Assembly: GCA_004321745.1 (NCBI GenBank)
Contig: SGYO01000007.1
Location: 1-64,000 of the forward strand
Source: a bacterium
Lineage (GTDB): Bacteria; Fidelibacterota; Marinisomatia; Marinisomatales; UBA1611
Length of the DNA stretch: 64,000 nt
Direction of reading: 5' to 3'
Part shown: in pieces, positions 1 to 7,994 of the stretch
Layout of the letters: each line of letters opens with the position of its first letter
Numbering within the stretch: position 1 is the stretch's first letter
Translations under genes and position numbers: made by a program
The notes under the pieces: model-generated
Told to the model about the DNA's origin: nothing
The model's input: only the letters and a program-made list of their open reading frames with translations
The model's database searches: none

Positions 1-609
1 GTTATTGAGAACGATGAAGCACTAAAAGAAGCCTACAGAGGTTGCTATAGCGATGAAAGAGACATTGTAATTGAACAAAAATGTTTTTCATTGGTTTATC
101 CTGTTTCTTATCAATTGCCAGATGGCTCATTAATTGAAGTCTTAACAGATGACGAGGATAGTTGGTCTGAAATGAACGCATGGTATGATGAAAATCCTGA
201 ATCTGCTGAAAGACCAACTTTGCAATATCCAGTTGTAATAATGTATGAAGAAGATGATGAAGGCAGTGAGGACGCTTTGATGGTAACTATAAACAATGAA
301 GATGAAATGATCAGTGCCAGGGAAGATTGTCGTGAGCTTGAATTCGATGATGTTGATGACTGTTACGAGTACAGTTATCCTATAACATATATTCTCCCTG
401 ATAATTCAACCGTGGAGATAGCTAGTTCGGATGATGAAAACGCATGGGGTCTAATTAGAAGATTCTATGAAGAAAATCCAGAGGCTGAAGGAGAACCTAT
501 TTTACAGTTTCCAATAGAAATTATTTTCCAGGGTGATATGGTTTTTGTCTTTGAAACAAATGCTGAATATGCATCTTTTGTTGAAGAAAATTGTAATAGG
601 CAAGATTAA
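1..609 (+). CDS. Partial (5' truncated) repeat protein, two visible ~95-aa repeats of the form Cys..YP[VI][ST]Y.LPD.S
   Basis: Frame 1 is open from base 1 (VIENDEALKEAYRGCYSDERDIVIEQKCFSLVYPVSY...) to TAA at 607-609. The track start at 91 is internal. Repeat units CFSLVYPVSYQLPDGS... and CYEYSYPITYILPDNS... Confidence 0.8.
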   Translation, partial: VIENDEALKEAYRGCYSDERDIVIEQKCFSLVYPVSYQLPDGSLIEVLTDDEDSWSEMNAWYDENPESAERPTLQYPVVIMYEEDDEGSEDALMVTINNEDEMISAREDCRELEFDDVDDCYEYSYPITYILPDNSTVEIASSDDENAWGLIRRFYEENPEAEGEPILQFPIEIIFQGDMVFVFETNAEYASFVEENCNRQD

Positions 610-644
610 AATTATTTTACTAAGTTTTATTAGGAGGATATATT

Positions 645-779
645 ATGATAAATTGTTGTTCTACTAGTTGTAAATGCTGTGATGGTGGTTGCAAATGTGA
701 TTGCTGTGATAAGGGTCTTTCATGCATGAAAGGCTGTGTCAGTAATTGTTGTAAAAGCGATTGTTGCTGCGCTAGTTAA
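645..779 (+). CDS. 44-aa cysteine-rich, metallothionein-like protein (16 Cys)
   Basis: Translation MINCCSTSCKCCDGGCKCDCCDKGLSCMKGCVSNCCKSDCCCAS*; AGGAGG Shine-Dalgarno 8 nt upstream of ATG. Below the length cutoff of the supplied ORF track. Confidence 0.7.
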   Translation: MINCCSTSCKCCDGGCKCDCCDKGLSCMKGCVSNCCKSDCCCAS

Positions 780-784
780 AAAAA

Positions 785-1558
785 TTAGTATTTGAAGTGC
801 TTGATTTTCTCGCCTTCATCTCCAATTTTTGTCATGGCTTCAATGCCCATATCTATATGTAGGTCTACATATTTTTGGGTCACATCTTTATCTTTTTCCT
901 CTGTTTTAATTCCTTCCGGTATCATTGGCGTATCACTTACAAGTAGCAATGCCCCTCTATTAATTTCATTTGAAAAACCAGTGATGAAAATAGTGGCAGT
1001 CTCCATATCAATGCCCATCACTCTGATTTTGCGAAGGTATTTTTTGAATTTATTATCATGTTCCCATACCCTACGATTAGTAGAATAAATAACGCCGGTT
1101 CTGTATTCAATCTCTCTTTCAACTAAAATTCCAGAAACATATTTATGCAGCTTAAATGAAGGCATCGCTGGAACCTCTTTTGGAAAATAATCATCACTTG
1201 TTCCTTCTCCGCGAATCGCTGCAATTGGCAGAATGAAATTTCCTATTTCTGTGGTCTTTTTTAACCCTCCACATTTGCCTAAAAACAAAATTCCTTTGGG
1301 TTCAATCGCTGATAAAAGATCCATAATAGTAGCAGCATTTGCGCTTCCAATACCAAAATTAATGATTCCCAATCCATCTTTATTAATTGATGATGTCATT
1401 GGTCCACCAATGCCATTTATTTTTGAATCAAATCTCTCAGCAAATTTTTCAACATAATTATGAAAATTTGTTAAGAGTATCCAATCTCCATACTTACTAG
1501 GATCTGTGCCTGTGTACCTTCTAAGCCAGTCAAATGCTATGTCTTTCTTTTTATTCAT
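785..1558 (-). CDS. amn: AMP nucleosidase-like / nucleoside phosphorylase superfamily protein
   Basis: Motifs GIINFGIGSANAATIMDLL, FLGKCGGL, IGNFILPIAAIRGEGTSDDYFP, MGIDMETATIF typical of PNP/UDP phosphorylase superfamily AMN-type proteins. Confidence 0.75.
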   Translation of the reverse strand: MNKKKDIAFDWLRRYTGTDPSKYGDWILLTNFHNYVEKFAERFDSKINGIGGPMTSSINKDGLGIINFGIGSANAATIMDLLSAIEPKGILFLGKCGGLKKTTEIGNFILPIAAIRGEGTSDDYFPKEVPAMPSFKLHKYVSGILVEREIEYRTGVIYSTNRRVWEHDNKFKKYLRKIRVMGIDMETATIFITGFSNEINRGALLLVSDTPMIPEGIKTEEKDKDVTQKYVDLHIDMGIEAMTKIGDEGEKIKHFKY

Positions 1559-6209: not shown

Positions 6210-7994
6210 TTGAAATTTAATCATAGTTCTATACAATCGTTTGGTGAATTGCTTCGCTACATTCGCCCCTGGAGAATCAAAGTAAGTTTTGCTTCAATCT
6301 GTTCTATTTTAAACAAAGTTTTTGATATTGCTCCGGAGGTCTTGATTGGTGTAGCGGTTGATTTAGTAGTTGAGAAGGAGAATAGCTTTGTAGCATCCCT
6401 TGGTTTCAGTTCCATTGAAAGCCAGGTCATCTTTCTAGGTGTAGTTACATTTATCATATGGGCGTTAGAATCAATGTTTGAATACATTTATTCAATACAG
6501 TGGCGTGGTTTAGCTCAGGTAGTGGAACACGAGGTGAGAGTATCAGCATACGACCATGCCCAAAGGCTTGGCTTAAGTTGGCATGAAAATCAGTCTACAG
6601 GAAATATTACTGCTATTTTAAATGACGATGTGAACCAATTAGAAAGATTCTTAAACAATGGAATGAATCAGATTATTCAAGTAATCGTATCAACTATTTG
6701 TATTGGTTTTATATTTTTTTATATATCGCCAACTATAGCCTCTATAGCTGTTTTGCCAGTTCCGATTATTTTTGCAGTTAGTTTTTTCTTTCAAAAAAAA
6801 TTATCGCCCAGGTATAAGAAGGTCAGGGATAAGGTAGGAGCTCTTAATTCTTCTGTTTTTAATAATTTATTAGGTATTCAAACCATAAAAAGTTTCATGT
6901 CTTTTCATAATGAAAAGCAGCGAGTCAGTGACCTAAGTCAAGATTATCAGAATGAAAATGTAAAAGCAATAACAGTAAGTAGCGCATTCGTTCCTGTTAT
7001 AAGGATGGGAGTACTGGCAGGTTTTTTAGGTACTATTTTAATTGGTAGTCACATGGCATTAAGTGGAACATTAGCAGTTGGTTCTTACAGCGTATTAGTT
7101 TTCCTCACTCAAAGATTTCTATGGCCTTTTACAACTTTAGGTACATTGGTAGATGATTTTGAAAGATCAATGGCATCAAGTAAGAGAATTTTTGATCTCT
7201 TAGAGACGAAAGAGCACATTGTTGAACAAGAAAAACCTGAAAGTATTGAGAATTTAAAAAGGGACATACATTTTGATAACATTACATTTAGTTATGATAA
7301 AAATTCTATTTTGTTTAAAGAATTCAATCTTAAAATAAAGTCTGGAACTGCCGTTGGAATTGTTGGCGATACAGGTTCAGGTAAAACAACACTCTCAAAA
7401 TTATTACTAAGATTATATGATCCTGATCAAGGCAGAATTATGATTGGAGATCAGGATATTTCAAACCTATCAATTGAAAGTTTACGAAATAGGATTGGAA
7501 TAGTAAGCCAGGATACATTTCTGTTCAATGCATCAATAAGAGAAAATATTCGCTATGGGAATAAATTATGCTCAGATGAGGAAATTGTTTCAGCTGCAAA
7601 GCAAAGTCAATGCGATGAATTTATATCCTCTTTGAAAGATGGGTATGAAACTTTGATAGGTGAGCGAGGTCAAAAATTATCTGGCGGACAAAGACAAAGG
7701 TTAGCCATTGCTAGAGCTATAGTCAGAGATCCAGACGTATTAATATTTGATGAGGCAACTTCATCAGTTGATAACAGAACTGAAAGGTTAATTCAAAAAT
7801 CATTTTTTGATCTAAAAAAGAATAGAACCATGATCATTGTAGCTCACAGGCTCTCGACAATAAGAAATTGCGATAATATTTTTGTCATTAAAGACTCAGC
7901 AGTTCATGAGTCAGGAACTCATGATCAGCTTATGAGCGGTTCAGACAGTTTTTATGCGGAATTGTGGAATATTCAAACTGGAAAGAAAATTTAA
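6210..7994 (+). CDS. ABC transporter, fused permease and ATP-binding protein (exporter type)
   Basis: TTG start; transmembrane region, then GDTGSGKTTLSKLLLRLYDP Walker A, LSGGQRQRLAIARAI signature, VLIFDEATSSVD Walker B. Confidence 0.92.
   Translation: MKFNHSSIQSFGELLRYIRPWRIKVSFASICSILNKVFDIAPEVLIGVAVDLVVEKENSFVASLGFSSIESQVIFLGVVTFIIWALESMFEYIYSIQWRGLAQVVEHEVRVSAYDHAQRLGLSWHENQSTGNITAILNDDVNQLERFLNNGMNQIIQVIVSTICIGFIFFYISPTIASIAVLPVPIIFAVSFFFQKKLSPRYKKVRDKVGALNSSVFNNLLGIQTIKSFMSFHNEKQRVSDLSQDYQNENVKAITVSSAFVPVIRMGVLAGFLGTILIGSHMALSGTLAVGSYSVLVFLTQRFLWPFTTLGTLVDDFERSMASSKRIFDLLETKEHIVEQEKPESIENLKRDIHFDNITFSYDKNSILFKEFNLKIKSGTAVGIVGDTGSGKTTLSKLLLRLYDPDQGRIMIGDQDISNLSIESLRNRIGIVSQDTFLFNASIRENIRYGNKLCSDEEIVSAAKQSQCDEFISSLKDGYETLIGERGQKLSGGQRQRLAIARAIVRDPDVLIFDEATSSVDNRTERLIQKSFFDLKKNRTMIIVAHRLSTIRNCDNIFVIKDSAVHESGTHDQLMSGSDSFYAELWNIQTGKKI

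Follow-up and report, generated by a model that had tools for sequence, protein, structure and literature searches.

Introduction

As of 2020, only two bacterial metallothioneins, SmtA and MymT, had been functionally investigated (PMC7387436). The proteins of the SmtA/BmtA type (PF02069; Synechococcus SmtA, Pseudomonas PmtA) are small, cytosolic and Cys-rich and are distinguished by His ligands and a zinc-finger-like fold; the metal clusters of the Pseudomonas proteins are formed by Cys9 plus His (PMC7387436). MymT, the mycobacterial Cu(I) metallothionein, is presented in PMC7558416 as the product of a tiny, unannotated, Cys-rich ORF with a proposed metal-protective role. In ciliates, the Tetrahymena CdMTs (metallothionein family 7a) are proteins of 99-181 aa in PMC4862169, characterized by the predominance of unusual CCC, CXCC and XCCX clusters, and the ciliate proteins of this family consist of two or more sm1/sm2 modules of 32-63 aa.

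The window analyzed here, i.e. the whole stretch of DNA under study, covers positions 1 to 64,000 of contig C38 in a Candidatus Marinimicrobia genome of 1.75 Mb. An ORF on its forward strand (645-779, ATG to TAA), which is single copy in this genome and conserved in relatives, encodes a metallothionein-like protein, hereafter MT, with the sequence MINCCSTSCKCCDGGCKCDCCDKGLSCMKGCVSNCCKSDCCCAS. Sixteen of the 44 residues (36.4%) are Cys (positions 4, 5, 9, 11, 12, 16, 18, 20, 21, 27, 31, 35, 36, 40, 41 and 42), arranged in CC, CXCC, CXCXCC and CCC runs, while H, F, W and Y are all absent. An AGGAGG Shine-Dalgarno sequence (632-637, forward strand) lies 7 nt before the ATG. The original prediction of a 44-aa, 16-Cys, His-less ORF preceded by a strong AGGAGG was therefore borne out by the sequence and its translation. 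MT shares with metallothioneins in general the small size, the very high Cys content, the CC/CXC-type clusters and the absence or rarity of aromatic residues, and its motif composition is that of characterized metallothioneins (PMC4862169).

Comparison of MT with the described metallothioneins

Like the SmtA/BmtA proteins, MT would be a small, cytosolic, Cys-rich bacterial protein in which metal-thiolate clusters are expected. Unlike theirs, its 16 cysteines stand in CC, CXCC and CCC runs and do not follow the SmtA pattern, its gene has no smtB-like regulator next to it, and the His ligands with the zinc-finger-like fold have no counterpart in MT, since the protein contains no His. PF02069 did not match in G000, and in 130 members of the order no hit rose above the cut-off (33 bits), which a control genome exceeded. 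The earlier view that MT is not of the SmtA/BmtA type is supported by both the unmatched model and the lack of His. MT resembles MymT as summarized in PMC7558416, both being very small bacterial ORFs, rich in Cys and unannotated, for which protection against metal has been proposed, but the host of MT belongs to a different phylum, the likeness is one of description only, and no NCBIfam model matched MT.

The protein had also been likened to an all-Cys eukaryotic style, and this was confirmed in one respect only. The CCC, CXCC and XCCX clusters which are typical of the ciliate CdMTs (PMC4862169) predominate in MT as well. However, this is an analogy, as no homology to a eukaryotic metallothionein was found; the MT proteins are of 44-48 aa, against the 99-181 aa of the CdMTs, and the sm1/sm2 modules are absent from the single 44-aa MT.

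Pfam gave no match to MT even at E 10, and no usable match was obtained from NCBIfam, PHROGs or PDB, where a match to a kinase at E 3.8 was considered as chance. Nothing came from phage records, plasmids or viral contigs, and the literature searched had no paper on metallothionein in Marinimicrobia/SAR406. Judged by its sequence, MT falls outside all metallothionein families of the searched libraries, and it illustrates how curated family libraries can miss short genes rich in Cys. On present evidence it would work like a metallothionein, strict membership resting on metal binding. With a conserved all-Cys family from uncultured ocean bacteria, the range of metallothionein architectures would be widened by one.

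Distribution and conservation of the MT family

The original prediction depended on the existence of homologous ORFs with undisturbed frames in relatives. Ten genomes from four genera, with that of the window counted, and one misbinned contig carry homologues; frame-disrupting variants were not seen in the relatives. Besides the window, four of the six other members of its genus have the short form (44 aa, 16 Cys), at 73-80% identity, while the long form (48 aa, 17-18 Cys) occurs in G028 and G031, from the window's family, and in G051, G096 and G125, from another family of the same order. Outside the genus the identity to the window's MT is 45-52%. Of the 245 phylum members covered, no others carry the gene. 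When 85,462 species were scanned with short peptide patterns and a tblastn filter, a method that could miss remoter relatives outside Marinimicrobia, only records named Candidatus Marinimicrobia or Neomarinimicrobiota were returned, together with one contig (L020) from a 'Pelagibacteraceae' bin. A true SAR11 occurrence was rejected in the latter case, because the genes of L020 match Marinimicrobia genomes at 86-98% and the contig is thus misbinned. As far as seen, the MT family is restricted to Marinimicrobia. One carrier from the window's genus, G005, is apparently the single-cell assembly AG-390-N21 (we take the AG-390 name to denote a single-cell genome), which argues against a binning artefact.

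In the family alignment Cys is invariant at 15 positions, among 18 invariant columns, and the other residues vary, as is usual for metallothioneins; His is absent from all homologues. Switches between TGT and TGC were observed at up to 10 Cys codons per sequence pair, and the shared Cys set was never lost. Within the genus dS was 0.43-0.53 and dN 0.04-0.05 (G005 compared with G001-G003); the resulting omega of about 0.09 is indicative only, the gene being short and several dS values saturated, and the Cys-codon pattern is the stronger evidence. Both the conserved Cys spacing and the low dN/dS had been named beforehand as checks of the prediction, and both were obtained. A Shine-Dalgarno-like site is kept in every family member, it is purine-rich in the relatives (AAGGAA, AAAGGGAA, GGAG), and the bases around it differ among them.

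The Cys content was also compared with chance, by shuffling the 64-kb window 100 times with its dinucleotides preserved and scoring the best 44-codon open stretch for Cys. The shuffles gave at most 9 Cys per stretch (mean 6.2) versus 16 in MT, and the runner-up among the real 44-codon stretches within the window had 10. The MT ORF is a true protein-coding gene with purifying selection on its cysteines.

Gene neighbourhood in the genus of the window

Upstream of MT, the contig start cuts the gene of an acidic repeat protein, the 3' end of which occupies positions 1-609 of the forward strand (ORF; synteny in G002, G003 and G005). The full-length protein of the relatives is a lipoprotein of 488-489 aa with 26% D+E. 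The gap between the two genes is 35 nt in the window and 34-35 nt, in the same order, in G002, G003 and G005 (L025, L026 and L024), and co-transcription of the acidic lipoprotein and MT genes is likely. The lipoprotein (window 1-609; L024:4996-6462) contains repeated 'YPVSYLMPDGTTIEIS' units with Cys at regular spacing; no convincing Pfam family was found for it, a marginal L55 match being likely due to composition. Beyond the lipoprotein gene a divergent TonB-dependent-receptor-like gene is found in the genus.

On the other side, MT faces the convergent gene of an AMP nucleosidase (785-1558, reverse strand), identified by NCBIfam PRK07115 (372.9 bits, over the cutoff) and by synteny. The stop codons of the two genes are 5 nt apart in the window and 5-6 nt across the genus. 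The AMP nucleosidase is a conserved genus neighbour which is not thought to take part in the function of MT; in G006, another genus member, it is present and adjoined by neither MT nor the lipoprotein gene. Neither the acidic lipoprotein nor the AMP nucleosidase has a recognized connection with metals, and the genus neighbourhood yielded no metal regulator or operator.

The metal-related neighbourhood in G051

In G051 a run of heavy-metal genes opens with MT. On the same strand, 42 nt downstream of it, comes the gene of a secreted GLVCSFCA (MerP/CopZ-like CxxC) protein, and after that the gene of an outer-membrane-like protein. The GLVCSFCA protein has homologues in 36 of the 130 genomes of the order. 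One homologue matched the MerP, CopZ and UxxU metal-binding models at E values of 0.001-0.06, the MerP-like matches falling below the curated cutoffs. The clusters around the homologues hold a secreted Cys-rich protein (117-131 aa), an HMA copper-binding lipoprotein (E 4e-10) and a MerT-like membrane protein (E 4e-5), and in that of G039 there is a P-type ATPase that translocates Cu (625.6 bits, cutoff 397). The MT of G051 sits where sister genomes carry the secreted Cys-rich gene. No other direct tie between the family and metals was seen in the genomes; the one in G051 is, however, specific.

The Marinimicrobia metal cluster as such (L105: 5255-9649; L108; L096; L032) comprises the secreted Cys-rich, GLVCSFCA, MerT-like and outer-membrane-like proteins, along with a DUF4396 His-rich protein and a Cu P-type ATPase with YHS domains. 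The gene set is incomplete in some genomes, and several members are unmatched in Pfam.

Proposed function and metal preference of MT

MT is very probably a small cytosolic metallothionein which would bind and buffer scarce or toxic metal ions and which represents a family new to the searched libraries, seen only in Marinimicrobia, because this reading accords with the composition, the lack of His and aromatics, the conservation of Cys alone and the neighbourhood in G051. The apo-peptide would be unstructured and would fold around the metal. Its 16 thiolates may form two blocks (Cys 4-21 and Cys 27-42) with a D/E/N-K-G hinge between them, and a capacity of about 5-6 ions can be supposed for divalent metals (Zn/Cd), or of about 10 or more for Cu(I). 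Such buffering would shield the cell from excess metal, and the thiols could also scavenge oxidants. In the window's genus MT and the acidic lipoprotein gene upstream of it probably share one mRNA, from which MT would be translated.

As to the metal, Cu(I) or a similarly soft one is slightly favoured, if only tentatively, because the G051 neighbourhood is Cu/Hg-like; here the surroundings of the gene in one relative stand against the Cys-motif analogy, which would point to Cd. That MT is a Zn/Cd metallothionein, i.e. a buffer of divalent metals and not of Cu(I), is quite possible. The CCC, CXCC and XCCX clusters dominate the Tetrahymena CdMTs, in the Tetrahymena CuMTs 92% are CXC and CCC and CXCC are almost absent (PMC4862169), and several of the MT cysteines have Lys beside them. 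However, this motif rule derives from unrelated ciliate proteins, and the clusters to which the G051 neighbourhood is related contain CopZ/MerP/MerT-like proteins, with the Cu P-type ATPase as well in G039. A metal other than the Cu(I)-like ones or Zn/Cd is unlikely.

A secreted disulfide-rich peptide or a RiPP precursor, which would not bind metal at all, could likewise be small, Cys-rich and strain-variable, and the window does contain a SAM-methyltransferase gene (1592-2209) and an ABC exporter gene (6210-7994) within 8 kb of MT. This explanation is very improbable, since MT has neither a signal-peptide-like N-terminus nor a leader and its first Cys is already at residue 4; neither the CCC runs nor the density of 16-18 Cys per 44-48 aa resembles disulfide peptides, MT matches no such family, and a maturation enzyme common to the different neighbourhoods of the family was not found. 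It was rejected for the lack of a leader and of a shared maturation gene. That the ORF is spurious, as its shortness and the curated libraries without a match might suggest, is refuted by the shuffles, the synonymous-only drift at the Cys codons, the Shine-Dalgarno-like sites and the conservation across families.

Mobility of the long form and the dispersed repeats

The DNA of the long form is 97.3% identical between G031 and G096, which belong to different families, and 94.6% between G028 and G096, versus 72% for the Hsp90 genes of G028 and G051. Therefore, recent horizontal transfer of the long form between Marinimicrobia families is likely by sequence comparison, misbinning being the alternative. 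The long form of G051 is only 71% identical to that of G096, although the two are of the same genus. The patchy, apparently mobile distribution of MT suggests metal exposure as a selective pressure.

In G028, G031, G096 and G125 the MT gene is flanked by copies of a repeat, or by sequences resembling it, which consists of a terminator-like hairpin and GTTTGTGGGATGATGKGTAGATT. The repeat was found in 65 of the 130 genomes of the order and not once with the reversed-pattern control; it is absent from the window genome. It is possible, though less likely than not, that MT is a phylum-specific all-Cys family of the CCC/CXCC kind, of which the long form travels between Marinimicrobia families as a repeat-bounded single-gene cassette and which became fixed in the window's genus in an operon with the acidic, surface-located lipoprotein.

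The layout of the repeat is a hairpin, GCCCCACATTCGTGGGG, a T-run and then GTTTGTGGGATGATGKGTAGATT (L081 = G016:C33; L082 = G039:C2; L084; L020). The copies often form one-orientation arrays between genes, with a spacing of 0.5-2 kb, which have the look of gene-cassette arrays with no obvious attC core. An integron integrase above the cutoff is present in 15 of the 130 genomes; an integron cassette was not called for the long form, as the repeats flanking MT lack, by eye, the GTTRRRY/RYYYAAC attC core. A second repeat, TGAAACGCCTCTGGCTCA, is located just upstream of several genes of L020 (at about 719, 1808, 2561 and 2971) and occurs also in L082. Several segments of L020 are each closest to a different genome.
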